25,752 bases of DNA from a virus, in IMG/VR virus record IMGVR_UViG_3300048009_000104, positions 1 to 25,752 of that record; one strand, written 5' to 3'. A program made the position numbers and the translations under genes. Position 1 is the stretch's first letter. Each line of letters starts with the position of its first letter. The notes under the pieces were generated by a model. That model was given only the letters and a program-made list of their open reading frames with translations, did not search any database and had not been told where the DNA came from. Shown here piece by piece: positions 6,709-12,852 of this stretch.

Positions 6709-7086
6709 CTAGGACAGGTCAATCGACACTTGTATATCACCAGCATGTAGATGCATGTGCTTGTCTGCGGCCTTGTATCCAGCCCTGTCCAAGATATCCT
6801 TGCTGGCCTCAAGCTGGACGTACTCACTCTTGGCACCCTGCGCCAGTTGCAACACCTTAGCAGCAGCAACCGTAGCATTCAGTCCAATACTCTCACCCAC
6901 CCGTTGCATCATGTACGCTTGAACGTGCGGTAGCTTCAAAGCCTTGCTGGCTGTCACTCTGCCGCTTTGTCCATTGGCATACCCTGCCTCTGCTGCTGCT
7001 TGTGTGATGCTACATCCAGTAGCTACCATCGTATCAACCAGTGCCATCTGTTTCGGTGTGCATTTCCTTGACGTTACATCGCTCAT
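6709..7086 (-). CDS. terS: Terminase small subunit-like protein
   Basis: The 125-aa product starts MSDVTSRKCTPKQMALVDTM. It has a helix-turn-helix-like segment, GCSITQAAAEAGYANGQSG, followed by a long helical part with SEYVQLEASKDILDRAGYK. This is the layout of small terminases: an N-terminal DNA-binding HTH and a helical oligomerisation region ending near 'D-I-L-D-R-A-G-x-x'. In such phages TerS recognises the packaging site and regulates TerL. The frame is open to an ATG at 7164, but AAGAGG stands 8 bases before the ATG at 7086 and the upstream extension is low-complexity C-rich DNA, so 7086 is preferred. It is separated from terL by about 3.8 kb. Confidence 0.82.
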   Translation of the reverse strand: MSDVTSRKCTPKQMALVDTMVATGCSITQAAAEAGYANGQSGRVTASKALKLPHVQAYMMQRVGESIGLNATVAAAKVLQLAQGAKSEYVQLEASKDILDRAGYKAADKHMHLHAGDIQVSIDLS

Positions 7087-7301
7087 ATCGTTTGCCTCTT
7101 CATCAGCCCCCCCTGTCATCCCCCCCATCACTAGCTGCTCGTTCATCCGTCCGTCAACGTACATTTGTCCATCTTTGCCCTCGACACTGCCATGCCCTGC
7201 GCATCACAAGCCAACAGCCTTATTACCTTTTCTAAAGAGGACTAGCTAAAAAGGAGAAGATATCCAACAGGACGCTGGCAAGTTGCCACTGTGGCTTGTT
7301 C

Positions 7302-7342
7302 TTACAGCTTTACATCTGTCATTTGTCTCTGCCGTCTCCTGC
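7302..7342 (-). repeat. Inverted vestigial copy of the RBS and start of the next early gene
   Basis: On the minus strand, CAGGAGAC, then AGACAAATG, then codons reading M-T-D-V-K-L-stop occur here. The plus strand at 7604-7640 has CAGGAGACAGACAAATG followed by M-S-D-V-K-L. About 26 of 31 aligned bases agree, apart from a short insertion. The six-codon frame is not a real gene; it looks like an inverted, decayed duplicate. Confidence 0.5.
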
Positions 7343-7436
7343 TAACCAACGGTCTGTACGCACCACTCTGCCATCCAATAGCACAACAATCTGTCGATAA
7401 CAGAGTCAAGCCGCTGTCGTATTACATCTAGTGATC

Positions 7437-7474
7437 GGCGCGCGCATTTATTGTTGCTCCGCAACGTGCGCGCC
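7437..7474 (+). other. GC-rich hairpin
   Basis: GGCGCGCGCA (7437-7446) faces TGCGCGCC (7467-7474), and an inner GTTGC/GCAAC stem (7453-7457, 7461-7465) closes a three-base loop. It lies in otherwise moderate-GC non-coding DNA and has no T-run, so it is not an ordinary terminator. Confidence 0.5.
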
Positions 7475-7517
7475 TAATGCTTCTAGTTATCAACGCTATT
7501 GGACTCTGTGTATCGAT

Positions 7518-7602
7518 GCTGCGTCCGCGCTCCCTCGCGCGGGGCAGCACCCCAAGGGGCAGATTGCCATGCTCTTGGGGCATCATGGCGGTACATCCCG
7601 CC
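7518..7602 (+). promoter_or_regulatory. Tandem hairpins in the 5' leader of the early cluster
   Basis: Three successive stems precede the RBS of the 145-aa gene. First, GCTGC plus CCGCGC pair with GCGCGG and GCAGC (7518-7548). Second, CCCCAAG pairs with CTTGGGG (7550-7556 and 7574-7580), with a nested GGCA/TGCC stem. Third, GGCGG pairs with CCGCC (7587-7591 and 7598-7602). AGGAG follows within about 10 bases. The packing suggests a folded leader RNA that could influence translation; no known riboswitch class was recognised. Confidence 0.45.
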
Positions 7603-7622
7603 GATTAACAGGAGACAGACAA

Positions 7623-8060
7623 ATGTCAGACGTAAAACTTTCAGAAGCCACAGTACAGCAACTTACCAACGCCCTGTTGGACACCTTCTCTAATGACTAT
7701 TCAAAAGGTAATAAGGCTGCCGACTTGTGCTACTCAGCGCATAACAGCATCGAATACAAAGAAGGCCAAATGACTAAGTTGAAGGCCGAGATGCAAGAAC
7801 TTCGCAGGCAAGGTGATGGTGCTGATGCCAATGCTGGCGACTCAGATTCCAACGAGATAATCGATGTCACGCTGTCAAGGAAATACCACCTTTACCAGTC
7901 GATGGCTACAGAGCTGGTTGAATTTCAGGCGCATCTGGACGCAGCACAAGTTGCACACAAGAAGCACAAAGGCACTAAGTGGATGCCAAAGCCAAAGAAC
8001 TTCGTGAAAGACAACAAGCTCGTTGAAGCATCCGCCATAGACGCTCTTCTCGCATCATAA
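7623..8060 (+). CDS. Unknown early protein with predicted helical regions
   Basis: This 145-aa protein starts MSDVKLSEATVQQLTNALLD behind CAGGAG at good spacing. The frame is open upstream to 7431, but that part overlaps the leader hairpins and lacks an RBS. The sequence is polar and rich in Lys, Glu and Ala, with a probable helix in YKEGQMTKLKAEMQELRRQ and another in the second half (LYQSMATELVEFQAHLDAAQ). I recognise no family. It is the first gene of the early rightward cluster and is followed by a strong terminator, so it may be expressed as a separate abundant transcript. Confidence 0.75.
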   Translation: MSDVKLSEATVQQLTNALLDTFSNDYSKGNKAADLCYSAHNSIEYKEGQMTKLKAEMQELRRQGDGADANAGDSDSNEIIDVTLSRKYHLYQSMATELVEFQAHLDAAQVAHKKHKGTKWMPKPKNFVKDNKLVEASAIDALLAS

Positions 8061-8068
8061 TCCAACTA

Positions 8069-8097
8069 GGGTGGGGTTCAAGCCTCACCCTTTTTTT
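8069..8097 (+). terminator. Strong rho-independent terminator
   Basis: GGGTGGGG (8069-8076) pairs with CCTCACCC (8083-8090) over eight positions with one G-T wobble and a six-base loop, followed by seven T. It lies directly after the 145-aa gene and should end most transcription there or act with partial read-through into the next genes. Confidence 0.85.
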
Positions 8098-8315: not shown

Positions 8316-8339
8316 CGCTTGGAAAAGGGGGGCAACACA

Positions 8340-8376
8340 GGTGGTTCCGCGACTTATCTCCCTTCGTGGGACCACC
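8340..8376 (+). terminator. Hairpin, attenuator or weak terminator
   Basis: GGTGGTTCC (8340-8348) can pair with GGGACCACC (8368-8376) over nine positions including one wobble, around a 19-base loop. The following sequence is T-rich (ATTTTCATTTCATTTATC) but not a pure T-run. It may reduce read-through between the 67-aa and 62-aa genes. Confidence 0.45.
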
Positions 8377-8411
8377 ATTTTCATTTCATTTATCAATTTA
8401 TGGAGGACAAA

Positions 8412-8600
8412 ATGCATACCATTTTAGCAGGGATGATTCTTTCATTCTTCTCACTGATTCTTTCAATTCACTTCGGACTGTCAGCCAATGGCATGGGCTT
8501 CATGGGTAGTGTGACTGCCTTCTTTGTAGGCCAATGCATGATGTACCTGCCCATGATTTTGGACACAGGTGCTAACCGCGCACGCAAGAATGTGCGGTGA
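8412..8600 (+). CDS. Small two-helix membrane protein
   Basis: From the ATG at 8412, with GGAGG upstream, the product has 62 residues and starts MHTILAGMILSFFSLILSIH. Two hydrophobic segments cover roughly residues 3-21 and 28-50, ending in a polar basic tail (NRARKNVR). This is a likely inner-membrane protein with both ends on the same side. It is in an early cluster, so superinfection exclusion or control of host membrane functions is conceivable, but nothing in the sequence shows it. A holin is less likely because the lysis genes are elsewhere. Confidence 0.65.
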   Translation: MHTILAGMILSFFSLILSIHFGLSANGMGFMGSVTAFFVGQCMMYLPMILDTGANRARKNVR

Positions 8601-8631
8601 CAAAACTCAATTCAAATGCAGAGGTAACGTG

Positions 8632-9009
8632 ATGCATAAAGAAATCGAATCCATCCTTGCATCAGTCAGCACTATCACTGGTTACACAGAGCATGAACTG
8701 CTCTCACCACGGCGTGCTGCTGGTTTAGCTACAGCCAGACAGTACGTCTACTGGATGGCAGTACAACACACTCGCCTGTCATACACACGCATTGGTGTCG
8801 AACTCTACAAAGATCACACCACGATTATGTACGGCTACAAACAAGCACAGTTAAAGCTGAACAACACTGTGTTTCGTTTCCAACTTGATGAGATTGTTCA
8901 GCACTGGAGATCTAACTATGGACGGCCTGACAACACCAGAATACAAGAGCGCGTACGCATTTCCAATTCAGATGATGGACATGCATATCCAAGTACCAGA
9001 CGACAGTAA
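8632..9009 (+). CDS. Stand-alone DnaA domain IV-like protein
   Basis: The 125-aa protein starts MHKEIESILASVSTITGYTE behind GAGGT. Residues about 20-70 match the C-terminal DNA-binding domain of DnaA: ELLSPRRAAGLATARQYVYW, then LSYTRIGVELYKDHTTIMYG, the D-H-T-T signature that contacts the DnaA box. No AAA+ ATPase domain is present. In bacteria this domain binds origin boxes and phage paralogues are known as regulators; here it could modulate the phage or host origin. Its last 92 bases overlap the next gene in another frame, so the tail after about residue 95 (RIQERVRISNSDDGHAYPS) is probably not conserved. Confidence 0.85.
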   Translation: MHKEIESILASVSTITGYTEHELLSPRRAAGLATARQYVYWMAVQHTRLSYTRIGVELYKDHTTIMYGYKQAQLKLNNTVFRFQLDEIVQHWRSNYGRPDNTRIQERVRISNSDDGHAYPSTRRQ

Positions 9010-9823
9010 TCCATACGAGTCTGGCTCTCGCACTCTCACCGTGCCACGTTCACTGCGCACTGCATTGATCCGCACTGACACCAACGAAATCCTTGGCACA
9101 CACGGCAGCAAATACAAGCCAGTGCTACATGATGATGTAGTCAACAGCATGATGGATGCGATCAAAGCAGCCAACATCAGCAATGACTACGAGGTTGACA
9201 TCAAGACCTATGACAATGGTGCCAAGATGAAGGGCGTCATTACGTTTCCCAACGTGCTGATCGAACCGCAGGTAGGTGACTACATCAGGTATCGCATCCC
9301 GTTCTTTAACTCATACGATGCATCATGGGCATTCATGTACTCAGCCGAGGGTGATCGCTTGTGGTGCAGCAACGGATGCTCACACCCACAGATGGTAACT
9401 GTAGGTAAAGTAAAGCACACCACCAACATCAACATCGAAGGTGCTGCTGCTAAGATTACTGCAGCAACAGAAGCATTCCATGGTTCCGAAGATCAGTGGC
9501 GCACCTATGCCAAGATCAAAGTCAGCGATGAGCAGGCAACAGCCATGATCAGAGCAACGCTATGCAAGTACAACAAGTCAGTCACTGGCGTAGAGGACAA
9601 GATCAACGAGGTGCAGTACGCCACACTGATGCGTGCATGGGATGATGAGAAGCGCAAGCTCGGCATGAACCTGTGGGCTTTGTACAACGCATGCACATGG
9701 TGGGCATCACACCCTGATGTCACACGCACACGCTCACACCCTGACGTAATCAGTCGGCAGCGCAGCGTTGATGTCGCACGCATGATGCAACACAAGCAGT
9801 GGAGAGAATTAGAAGCTGCTTAA
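8918..9823 (+). CDS. DUF932-like phage/plasmid protein
   Basis: From an ATG at 8918 preceded by GGAGATC, the product has 301 residues. It shows LGTHGSKYKPVLHDDVVNSM, FFNSYDASWAFMYSAEGDRL followed by WCSNGCSHP, and later a His/Lys-rich VGKVKHTTN segment. Similar order, with N-S-H/Y-D-G-S, R-x-V/W-C-S-N-G and K-H-T, occurs in DUF932 proteins of phages and plasmids, whose role is uncertain but linked to replication or recombination. An upstream start at 8885 is possible but lacks the RBS. The gene overlaps the DnaA-like gene by 92 bases. Confidence 0.78.
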   Translation: MDGLTTPEYKSAYAFPIQMMDMHIQVPDDSNPYESGSRTLTVPRSLRTALIRTDTNEILGTHGSKYKPVLHDDVVNSMMDAIKAANISNDYEVDIKTYDNGAKMKGVITFPNVLIEPQVGDYIRYRIPFFNSYDASWAFMYSAEGDRLWCSNGCSHPQMVTVGKVKHTTNINIEGAAAKITAATEAFHGSEDQWRTYAKIKVSDEQATAMIRATLCKYNKSVTGVEDKINEVQYATLMRAWDDEKRKLGMNLWALYNACTWWASHPDVTRTRSHPDVISRQRSVDVARMMQHKQWRELEAA

Positions 9824-9844
9824 TTCAAATGATTGGAGATCATA

Positions 9845-10208: not shown

Positions 10209-10819
10209 AACTTTATCATTGCTTGCTTAACCTTGCCAATCAATCGCTTACCTACATCCTTAGCTTTTATTGGCGACCAAAATTCTTGCCCAACATGACT
10301 GAATTGTTCGGGCATAACCCGAGCATCGGCTGGATAACAAGCCAATAAATCATTACGATATTCAGCACACATAAGCCCAATTGATTTGCTTTTATACAAA
10401 ACAATATCGCCTTCATCTACATCTTGGAAAGATTTTTTAGGTTCGACTACAACAGTAGAATGTCCGACAATGCCTCTGGCACCCATGCCTGTCCATTCAC
10501 CCATCTGATAGATTTCTACGTTATCGTCATCAATTACGATCATATCAATAACTAACCCCTCTGCATCGTAGACGGGTCTTTTGATATAGGTTGTCTGTTG
10601 GCAACCTGTATTCAAAAGTGGAGGAAACGAACCAGCCACAGCAGCCAGCTTTGCAAGGGTTCTTGCACTTGGAATAAACTTGGAATCAGAATTAAGAAAC
10701 CGAGTTATGTTACTGGTAGATGTGCCTGCACGGTTGGCCCATCCATTAGCTGTCCAATTGTGGTTAGCCATAACGGTACGCATCCATACGCGTATGGCTT
10801 TCCTTTCATCCTGTTCCAC
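10205..10819 (-). CDS. Prophage repressor: HTH plus S24-like C-terminal domain
   Basis: From a GTG at 10819, placed six bases after AAGGAG, the product has 204 residues. The N-terminal part has an HTH: WTANGWANRAGTSTSNITRF, then IPSARTLAKLAAVAG. The C-terminal part resembles the S24/LexA fold (DVDEGDIVLYKSKSIGLM, then DVGKRLIGKV) but I see no S-M after a G-D/N step and no VKR catalytic Lys. So it may be S24-like without autocleavage. An ATG at 10837 would add six residues but has no RBS. It is divergent from Cro and most probably keeps lysogeny by binding the palindromic sites nearby. Confidence 0.85.
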   Translation of the reverse strand: MEQDERKAIRVWMRTVMANHNWTANGWANRAGTSTSNITRFLNSDSKFIPSARTLAKLAAVAGSFPPLLNTGCQQTTYIKRPVYDAEGLVIDMIVIDDDNVEIYQMGEWTGMGARGIVGHSTVVVEPKKSFQDVDEGDIVLYKSKSIGLMCAEYRNDLLACYPADARVMPEQFSHVGQEFWSPIKAKDVGKRLIGKVKQAMIKF

Positions 10820-10944
10820 AGCTGTCTCCTTGTGCATAAATACATGGATACAGCAGACCCGCATGCTTTGTCATTAAGCATAAATGCATAAAAGCACATT
10901 GGATTCACTTGTGCAATATGCATTAATGCAATACAATATCTCGT
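10820..10944. promoter_or_regulatory. Immunity operator region with four or five TGCATWWATGCA sites
   Basis: Variants of the 12-bp palindrome are TGCATAAATACA (10833-10844), AGCATAAATGCA (10877-10888), TGCATAAAAGCA (10885-10896, overlapping the previous one) and the perfect TGCATTAATGCA (10919-10930); GTGCAATATGCA (10911-10922) is weaker. They lie between the divergent repressor and Cro genes, as expected for OR-like operators. Repressor and Cro probably compete here. Which protein prefers which site cannot be told from sequence. Confidence 0.7.
10909..10937 (+). promoter_or_regulatory. Rightward Cro promoter (PR-like), leaderless
   Basis: TTGTGC (10909-10914) and TACAAT (10932-10937) are separated by 17 bases, and the perfect palindrome fills most of the spacer. 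The -10 ends 7 bases before the Cro ATG, so the first transcribed base is at or beside the start codon; no Shine-Dalgarno is present. A bound repressor would cover the spacer and -10. Confidence 0.65.
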
Positions 10945-11145
10945 ATGGATACTTATTTTGAGACACTACAAGCAGTAGCAGACAGGCTAGATGTTGATTT
11001 GAGAACGGCATTCTCTGTGTCAGGTGTGCCAATCAGTACCTTCTATCGATCAGCGCAGCGTAATGACATGCGACACAAAACAGCAATGAAGGTGTTGAAT
11101 GCAATCAAGAACATTCACGCATCTAAAGAATCCTGTGCTGGTTGA
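10945..11145 (+). CDS. Cro-like small HTH repressor
   Basis: This 66-aa protein starts MDTYFETLQAVADRLDVDLR. The middle, RTAFSVSGVPISTFYRSAQR, fits an HTH, with the second helix S-T-F-Y-R as the likely recognition helix. A last helix follows (KTAMKVLNAIKNI). Small size, divergent orientation from the repressor and first position in the rightward early operon make it the functional counterpart of lambda Cro. In lambda this protein represses the repressor promoter and favours lytic growth; the same is inferred here. Its promoter overlaps the operator and the mRNA appears leaderless. Confidence 0.8.
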   Translation: MDTYFETLQAVADRLDVDLRTAFSVSGVPISTFYRSAQRNDMRHKTAMKVLNAIKNIHASKESCAG

Positions 11146-11636: not shown

Positions 11637-11785
11637 AGTACCGCAAAGCAAGCAGCTTTCCCTCTCCCTTCACTGTCCTCAACAACCGCAACGCTGCAAT
11701 CTACAAGCGTGGCAACGGCACCGATCCCAAGTGGGTGCTGATACTACCCGACTACATAGTCGAAAAGATCTGGAGATCACAATGA
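11465..11785 (+). CDS. Resolvase-like PD-(D/E)XK nuclease
   Basis: This 106-aa protein starts MASKARAKGNYHENYFVKLF. The active-site pattern is Glu13, then GGEYSGDLII (Asp43) and VVEVKYRK (Glu56, Lys58), i.e. E..D..E-x-K, with a preceding Ser-Gly-rich loop. This matches Hjc-like Holliday junction resolvases, though VRR-NUC or other nucleases of the same fold cannot be excluded. It is set among replication and recombination genes and likely trims or resolves branched replication intermediates before packaging. Four bases overlap with the next gene (ATGA). Confidence 0.82.
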   Translation: MASKARAKGNYHENYFVKLFKEWAIKVKKQPLSGSLGGEYSGDLIIELNGQRLVVEVKYRKASSFPSPFTVLNNRNAAIYKRGNGTDPKWVLILPDYIVEKIWRSQ

Positions 11786-12402
11786 GTTTTGTCATCATGG
11801 GCAAAGTCTATGCCACTGATGTTGGTGACTCGCTTGCTAAGTTTGTGCTGCTCGTACTAGCAGAACATGCCGACAACGATTCACACATCTGCTGGCCCAG
11901 CTTATCCCGCATACAATCTATCACGCATCTGTCACGCCAATCAGTAGTCAACAAGCTAGACTATCTGACCAGTCGTGGCTTCATACAACGTGAGCGTGGA
12001 CACAAAGGGCAGTCCACCAGATATACTATCCTAGTCCACCAGCTAGACCAGGGTAGTCAACCAGCTAGACCCGAACCTGTCAGTAAACCTAATAACAATA
12101 GCAGTAGCCAGCCGATCCCGCATGATTGGGTTGCTAGTGAAGAGTTGCGTGCTGCTGTAGATGCATTACCAAATCTTGAGGAGATCGATCATGACATTGA
12201 AGAAGCTCAGTTCCGTAGCTACTGGCAAGAGCGCGGCGGCACCAACGCAGACTGGGACGCTAAATACAAATGGTTTATCAAACGCCATCGTACCAAGCAG
12301 CCAGATGCGCCAAGCAGCTTTAACCAAGCTCGTTCAACTAAAGCCAGACGAGACAGTGGATCAACTGGTATCTGGCATGATGTCGCTAGGGGTGTTGGTT
12401 GA
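11782..12402 (+). CDS. Phage replication initiator with winged HTH (O-like)
   Basis: A 206-aa protein from an ATG at 11782 preceded by GGAGATC. The N-terminal domain is a winged helix with SLAKFVLLVLAEHADNDSHI, the W-P-S-L element CWPSLSRIQSITHLSRQSVV, and NKLDYLTSRGFIQRERG. A Pro/Ser/Asn-rich linker (about 100-130) leads to a C-terminal part FRSYWQERGGTNADWDAKYK, typical of HTH_36-type replication proteins. By analogy to lambda O it binds the origin and recruits a helicase. No phage helicase or primase is visible, so the host replisome is probably recruited. Confidence 0.8.
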   Translation: MSFVIMGKVYATDVGDSLAKFVLLVLAEHADNDSHICWPSLSRIQSITHLSRQSVVNKLDYLTSRGFIQRERGHKGQSTRYTILVHQLDQGSQPARPEPVSKPNNNSSSQPIPHDWVASEELRAAVDALPNLEEIDHDIEEAQFRSYWQERGGTNADWDAKYKWFIKRHRTKQPDAPSSFNQARSTKARRDSGSTGIWHDVARGVG

Positions 12403-12826
12403 GCCACGCATGGTTACACGCTTCCCTGACAATGGTGTGCGTATCACAATCACACATTATGATGTGCATACCACGCGCGACATTACAGATGAGCGTGTCA
12501 ATCAATCTATTGAGCGTGCCATGCTGTCGCTCACACCCATGCCAGAAGATGATATGTACAAAAACCTGCAAGCCACAGTCATGCTCATGGCTAAGCCAGC
12601 AGGTGAGAGTGCTGATGATCTGAAGATGCGCTTGCAACTGCTGGTCAAGAACATGGCTGACTGGCCTGCTGATATCTTTTTGGCTGCACTTAAAGCAGTA
12701 GCAGAAACCAACAAGTTCTTTCCTGCGTTTGCAGAGTTTCACAAGCACTATTCTACTCACATTCGCAAGCGCAGACTTATACTTGAAGCATTGCATAAAT
12801 ACAAAAATCAGCACGTTTTGTCTTGA
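12377..12826 (+). CDS. Replication helper-like protein downstream of the O-like initiator
   Basis: The product is about 149 aa from an ATG at 12377; the start is uncertain. Alternatives are 12305 (173 aa) and 12410 (138 aa), none with a strong RBS, and the frame overlaps the initiator at its upstream end. The C-terminal half, KMRLQLLVKNMADWPADIFL followed by AALKAVAETNKFFPAFAEFH, resembles a segment I know from small phage proteins next to initiators (L-x-D-x-P-A-x-x-x-x-A-x-x..F-x-P-A-x-A-E). Position parallels lambda P, a helicase loader. Similarity in position is not proof. The gene is likely real. Confidence 0.65.
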   Translation: MMSLGVLVEPRMVTRFPDNGVRITITHYDVHTTRDITDERVNQSIERAMLSLTPMPEDDMYKNLQATVMLMAKPAGESADDLKMRLQLLVKNMADWPADIFLAALKAVAETNKFFPAFAEFHKHYSTHIRKRRLILEALHKYKNQHVLS

Positions 12827-12852
12827 TTGTTGTGCATTTATGCATATATAAT
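12792..12852 (+). promoter_or_regulatory. Repressor-controlled promoter of the recombination genes
   Basis: TTGATT (12823-12828) and a perfect TATAAT (12847-12852) are 18 bases apart. TGCATTTATGCA (12833-12844) sits in the spacer, two bases before the -10. A second variant, TGCATAAATACA, at 12792-12803 is identical to the one at 10833-10844. This is the best match to sigma-70 in the window. It lies 24 bases upstream of the exonuclease ATG. Confidence 0.75.

Follow-up and report, generated by a model that had tools for sequence, protein, structure and literature searches.

What use a phage may have for the DNA-reading end of the bacterial initiator DnaA, detached from the rest of the molecule, is the question raised by a short gene in the IMG/VR virus record IMGVR_UViG_3300048009_000104. 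The stretch analysed, 25,752 nucleotides (positions 1 to 25,752 of that record), is referred to here as the window. The original prediction had described a 125-aa protein with the DnaA-box-binding signature and no AAA+ domain, and had proposed that it either steers the host replisome to a phage origin or blocks host initiation. The open reading frame is present as described, and its product is, with practical certainty, DnaA domain IV alone. The gene and the codons of its DNA-reading residues are the following:

8632–9009, + strand: coding sequence of the DnaA domain IV protein, 125 aa (residues 1–97 in a confident fold, the remainder a low-confidence tail)
8713–8742, + strand: codons R28 to Q37; R28 corresponds to E. 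coli R399, the minor-groove arginine, and R36-Q37 to R407-Q408 (phmmer alignment to 1j1v_A and 3pvp_A)
8812–8823, + strand: codons D61-H62-T63-T64 at the start of the recognition helix; D61-H62-T63 corresponds to E. coli D433-H434-T435 (alignment to 1j1v_A)

In the Pfam profile search the protein matched PF08299 (Bac_DnaA_C) with E=3.7e-14 and a score of 52.9 bits (cut-off 31.5), and its residues 5–71 aligned with positions 1–68 of the 69 of the profile, that is, with the whole domain. A better match to another helix-turn-helix family had been named beforehand as the outcome that would speak against the assignment; PF08299 was the sole Pfam family found in the protein. The top NCBIfam match was full-length DnaA, TIGR00362 (E=5.8e-11), whose 42.1 bits fall far below the cut-off of 343.9 because the protein comprises just the end part of DnaA. 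Indeed, the AAA+ domain III, the Walker motifs and the N-terminal domain I of a full DnaA were all absent from the 125 residues in the Pfam and NCBIfam searches; the PHROG profile search gave no match. Among solved structures, the sequence search (phmmer) placed M. tuberculosis 3pvp first (E=6e-6), followed by the E. coli domain IV–box structure 1j1v (E=0.04) and by 2z4r, a further full DnaA (E=0.3). The AlphaFold2 model, built on a 51-row alignment, has a mean pLDDT of 85.3; 93 residues reach 90 or more, and blocks of residues 1–90 lie at 94–98. It places a helix at residues 62–75 and becomes poor in the tail, from about residue 101. Foldseek searches with this model returned DnaA in all nine top matches, headed by 3pvp (E=3.3e-5) and with the box-bound E. 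coli domain IV structure 1j1v in third place (rmsd 1.3, TM(target) 0.85), and the model shows the helical fold of domain IV with its helix-turn-helix.

In E. coli, as described in PMC5742627, R399 reads the minor groove at the 5′ TTA of the box, the major groove of its 3′ part is read by helix 434–451, and the R399A and T435M substitutions cause box-binding defects. The equivalents of R399 and T435 are both kept in the alignment (R28 and T63; E. coli residue numbers were counted manually on the phmmer alignment, backward from D433). Pfam, alignment and AlphaFold/Foldseek thus agree with the claim of an isolated domain IV with intact box-reading residues. The phage protein has in common with bacterial DnaA domain IV (PF08299; 1j1v, 3pvp) the fold and the tested box-contact positions, but it differs from bacterial DnaA in lacking domains I–III, in its 25–26% identity and in its extra low-confidence tail.

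The gene is present in four viral contigs at 93–98% identity; the loci of its close relatives are designated L002 to L005. Within the genome it belongs to the early/regulatory half, where it adjoins a CI-like repressor region, a name based on layout since no family was matched. Three features define its immediate setting:

8617–8640, + strand: 24 nt without a difference in L002 and L004, covering the GAGG site and the ATG (blastn, upstream regions)
8918–9823, + strand: DUF932 gene, phage/plasmid-like protein (PF06067, E=8.3e-15)
8068–8091, + strand: hairpin resembling an intrinsic terminator, upstream of the operon that contains the DnaA-domain gene (weak scan result, 5 found against 3.5 expected in shuffles)

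Inspection of the open reading frame revealed an alternative GTG start at 8569, giving a 146-aa product; ATG 8632 is the likely start, because upstream identity with L002 and L004 begins at 8617 and a GAGG ribosome site is present. The 3′ end of the gene overlaps by 92 nt the DUF932 gene, which is 93–100% identical across L002–L005 and probably starts at 8918, read from a GGAG site; the two genes are likely to be translationally coupled. Over codons 1–98, dS/dN relative to the window is 0.201/0.042 for L004, 0.093/0.023 for L002 and 0.096/0.027 for L003, while the 0.053/0.031 of L005, in which the first 13 codons are missing, reflects too few changes to judge. The dN/dS ratio is 0.13–0.28 in seven of the ten close-relative pairs over the same codons; the other three comprise one identical pair and two (0.43 and 0.58) that both involve the truncated L005 and very few changes. 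Since dS exceeds dN against L004, L002 and L003, the protein is, by its substitution pattern, under purifying selection in its close relatives.

Stand-alone DnaA domain IV genes of phages are a kind already known to annotation, apparently uncharacterised. In IMG/VR, 150 of the 485 pattern matches of an alignment scan were confirmed as relatives; the best 80 of these, together with one phage record, made up a set of 81 open reading frames, 95–311 aa long (median 147 aa; 76 complete), which fell into 48 clusters at 80% identity with one representative each. All 48 representatives matched PF08299 and none an ATPase family in Pfam, the sole additional Pfam family at 0.001 being HTH_38, in four. 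Thirteen matched phrog_16091, which has no name, and two phrog_27829, ‘DnaA-like replication initiation protein’; both PHROGs thus contain relatives, and the window protein itself matches neither. A PHROG transcriptional repressor was matched by one representative. R28 is kept in 45 of the 48, R36 in 47 and D-H-T-T in all, the last count being biased by the search pattern. In a second scan, with the pattern placed outside the recognition helix, 44 relatives were obtained from 52 matches, on contigs partly the same as in the first; H and the last T were present in all 44 (DHTT in 27, HHTT in 8, DHST in 6, DHAT in 3), and none had a Walker A motif in frame. The 17 that deviate from DHTT at one position may reflect a drift in specificity.

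A structure search of BFVD gave 40 matches at E<=0.001, of 92–218 aa and 12–33% identity; many carry the UniProt name ‘Chromosomal replication initiator, DnaA C-terminal’, from uncultured Caudovirales phages, and resemble the window protein in fold and length. Annotated phages with such short genes include the Microcystis phages Mvi-Yong1342-1 and Mae-JY35, the Myoviridae isolate ctOK67, the Bradyrhizobium phage ppBeUSDA76-2 and phage C72C1. No experimental study of such a phage protein was found in the open-access literature searched, a scope that leaves most subscription journals outside. A single-protein scan found no near relative in sequenced bacteria; in the bacterial alignment scan, the frame also contains a Walker A motif in 76 of the 80 loci examined (of at least 202 confirmed), and these were taken as ordinary DnaA, the other four lying in frames of 485, 134, 415 and 191 codons. 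Four unverified contigs of faecal origin in the phage collection, with full-length DnaA in frames of 414–471 aa, were left aside, as were further tblastn matches resembling host DnaA in mislabelled records.

This distribution bears on whether the gene is simply a passenger, a copied host DnaA domain that plays no important role or sequesters a few boxes only. Such a reading would accord with the lack of the gene in the two isolates whose terminases are most similar, Pelagibacter phage Hodr and MEP301, and with gene neighbours that vary between phages; it is nevertheless unlikely, given that selection is purifying wherever pairs have enough change to judge and that the gene is kept across 48 clusters. 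The window has a GC content of 46.9% compared with 32.8% in Hodr, and neither a tRNA nor an Rfam match was found in it.

Together with the proposal that the protein directs the host replisome to the phage origin, the original prediction had pointed to an imperfect DnaA box in a stretch described as non-coding, 7087–7622. Two features are relevant here:

7392–7400, − strand: imperfect DnaA box TTATCGACA, judged a chance match (no enrichment; the region is missing in L002, L003 and L004)
7114–7359, − strand: decayed inverted copy of 7591–7830, the 5′ part of gene 7623–8060, with in-frame stops (local alignment)

The box sequence does exist, and it was discarded as a target since it has no counterpart in L002, L003 or L004 and is not enriched. 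The surrounding stretch is mostly the decayed inverted copy, whose alignment scores 102.5 against 25 for the best of 200 shuffles, and as an origin it was ruled out for that part. The minus-strand copy extends into the start of the leftward gene 6709–7164. From 7054 to about 8324–8590, L002–L004 carry unrelated DNA instead, with a different 186-aa gene.

The original prediction had also remarked on the lack of a polymerase or helicase of the phage's own; among the 10 proteins searched this is not contradicted, but a replication initiation gene had been missed:

11782–12402, + strand: O-like replication initiation gene (phrog_1032, E=2.7e-23; HTH_36, E=7.6e-10)
12006–12071, + strand: three 22-bp tandem repeats, iteron-like, within the O-like gene; candidate phage origin (TRF score 76)
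12191–12826, + strand: gene in the place of a helicase loader, overlapping the O-like gene (role from position alone; no Pfam, PHROG or NCBIfam match)

A fourth copy of the 22-bp repeat lies near 11942, and the repeats are conserved in L003–L005; their period is not a multiple of 3. Between L004 and the window they differ at 2 of 66 positions, compared with 37 of 328 in the remaining gene before 12173 (Fisher p=0.042), while the same comparison with L003 and L005 (p=1.0 and 0.70) involves sequences too similar to tell. The gene at 12191–12826 is 87–97% conserved in L003–L005; it overlaps the O-like gene by about 212 nt in a different frame, and both are kept in these relatives. RecE-like, ERF and integrase genes, identified by profile searches, follow downstream. 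In phage lambda the origin lies inside the initiator gene, and the layout of the window resembles this arrangement; an O-like protein with in-gene tandem repeats groups with the lambda-like O initiators, and initiation at the repeats of the window is a prediction. The repeats at 12006–12071 are likely to be the phage origin, and a separate DnaA-box origin is neither needed, given the O-like gene with its own repeats, nor seen.

DnaA domains I and III are the parts that contact DnaB, ATP and other DnaA molecules. Profiles and model show a 125-aa protein of domain IV alone, with neither of these, which argues against its acting as an adaptor that marks the phage origin by DnaA-box binding and recruits the host replisome. 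This role is improbable also because a box cluster occurs neither in the window nor near the gene, the box at 7392–7400 is not conserved and the window encodes an O-like initiator whose gene carries repeats; steering to a DnaA-box origin, as first proposed, is accordingly disfavoured. Indications for it come from other phages, in some of which the gene adjoins replication genes: in MW202613 it precedes a replisome-organiser gene, and its 134 downstream neighbours include six DnaD-like helicase loaders and five replication initiation proteins, in counts that come from a simple ORF caller with possible false genes, overlap between families, include no background frequency and are tilted by one row (the replication gene of L007, entered by hand as third neighbour). 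Five of the downstream neighbours match HNH endonucleases, and the 128 upstream neighbours, counted in the same way, include nine of a DNA methyltransferase family and seven of a helicase family. No constant partner was found among these 134 downstream and 128 upstream neighbours; DUF932 is confined to the window's own group, with one of the 134 downstream.

DnaA boxes in the phage genomes were counted as possible binding sites. Sequences that depart from TTATNCACA at no more than one position number 23 in the window, where 29.5 are expected, which is no enrichment, and the window contains no box cluster, the largest group being two in 500 bp, equalled in 60 of 60 shuffles; the looser TTWTNCACA occurs twice in the window and not at all in the L002, L003 and L004 loci. 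An exact consensus box, TTATGCACA, lies at 10831–10839 (− strand), where the repressor-like gene has a potential start codon that it overlaps; it was rejected as a target, being missing from L003, L004 and L005, with about 1.3 exact boxes expected in the window. Across the 48 loci, exact TTATNCACA was found 25 times against 15.0 expected, with 16 of 200 permuted patterns as frequent, and only one of the 25 is intergenic, compared with 10.1% of the DNA; the corresponding figures are 47 against 39.7 for TTWTNCACA and 332 against 385 for one-mismatch sites. Proximity to the gene brings no higher density: there are 11 boxes in the 153.8 kb that lie up to 1.5 kb from it and 36 in the other 528.7 kb of the 48 loci. 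Dense groups in L014 and L083 were each matched in one of 60 shuffles, and about one such group is expected among 48 loci. Since they are neither conserved, nor denser near the gene, nor concentrated between genes, canonical boxes in phage DNA do not appear to be the evident target of the protein. In L014, two inverted consensus boxes, TTATACACA, flank the DnaA-domain gene at 9823–9840 and 10537–10554, within an 18-nt imperfect inverted repeat; one is degraded in L013, and both are in L015.

These results leave two principal readings. In the one tentatively favoured, the product would be a small, ATP-independent, sequence-specific DNA binder, without the parts for ATP binding, oligomerisation, origin melting and DnaB loading, the monomer of which would still bind DnaA-box-like 9-mers. 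Its main targets would more probably be boxes of the host chromosome, those at oriC, at the dnaA promoter and at further promoters under DnaA control, because no box clusters surround the gene in the window or the 47 other loci. By competing with host DnaA at these sites it would damp or retime host initiation or DnaA-dependent transcription, at an early stage of infection or during lysogeny; replication of the phage would meanwhile depend on its own O-like initiator. Competition with DnaA at host boxes is favoured because the box-reading residues are kept and evident phage targets are absent; we are moderately confident of this host-directed part, while the statement as a whole, a domain IV protein competing with DnaA at host boxes, is put at somewhat under an even chance. 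The protein may block host initiation, the other half of the original proposal. On the other side, the absence of boxes in the phage is equally predicted by an altered target, and exact TTATNCACA is somewhat commoner than expected over the 48 loci.

The other reading, a real possibility that we rank below competition at host boxes, is a phage transcription regulator with a borrowed DnaA domain IV fold, which would act on its own early-region sites, perhaps with a shifted preference, to control early or lysogenic genes. The position of the gene beside the CI-like repressor region in the early/regulatory half agrees with it, as do the HTH_38 and repressor matches of four and one of the 48 representatives, respectively; moreover, the Bac_DnaA_C-like domain of TnpA-REP occurs with flanking repeats unlike DnaA boxes, as described in PMC6006769. 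Candidate sites are also at hand. Palindromes of the TGCATTAATGCA type at the repressor-like gene are conserved in the window, L003, L004 and L005, and upstream of the RecE gene a related one is shared by the window (12790–12850), L003 and L005. In the window, the TGCATTAATGCA and GCATAAATGCA palindromes lie at 10875–10945, between the repressor-like gene and the next rightward gene. However, these are the positions expected for CI/Cro-type operators, and the palindromes are likely to be operators of the repressor; a protein with a shifted target would not need the box-reading residues, which are retained here, and DnaA boxes, the sole motif checked for association across phages, do not accompany the gene.

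If competition at host boxes holds, its outcome would be shared with known phage factors that reach the host initiation machinery by protein contact, namely YfdR of an E. coli cryptic prophage, which acts on host initiation (PMC4776307), and an S. aureus phage inhibitor of DnaI (PMC4887207), as these are described there; those two bind proteins, whereas the window protein would bind DnaA boxes. Binding of host boxes would represent a simple phage interference with the start of host replication that leaves host proteins untouched, and the family would provide natural ATP-free box binders for studies of initiation control; were phage operators bound instead, the DnaA reading head would have been reused as an ordinary regulator. 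A wider proposal, more doubtful than competition by this one protein, is that a widespread phage family reduced to the reading head brakes host initiation at the DNA level, at oriC and DnaA-controlled promoters, while phages without box clusters, here with an initiator of their own, would be unaffected. In the Bradyrhizobium phage ppBeUSDA76-2 (L214), a DUF2312 gene lies a few genes after the DnaA-domain gene, and in other loci GapR_DNA-bd is matched once among the 134 downstream neighbours, a second host chromosome-binding domain in phages of this kind.
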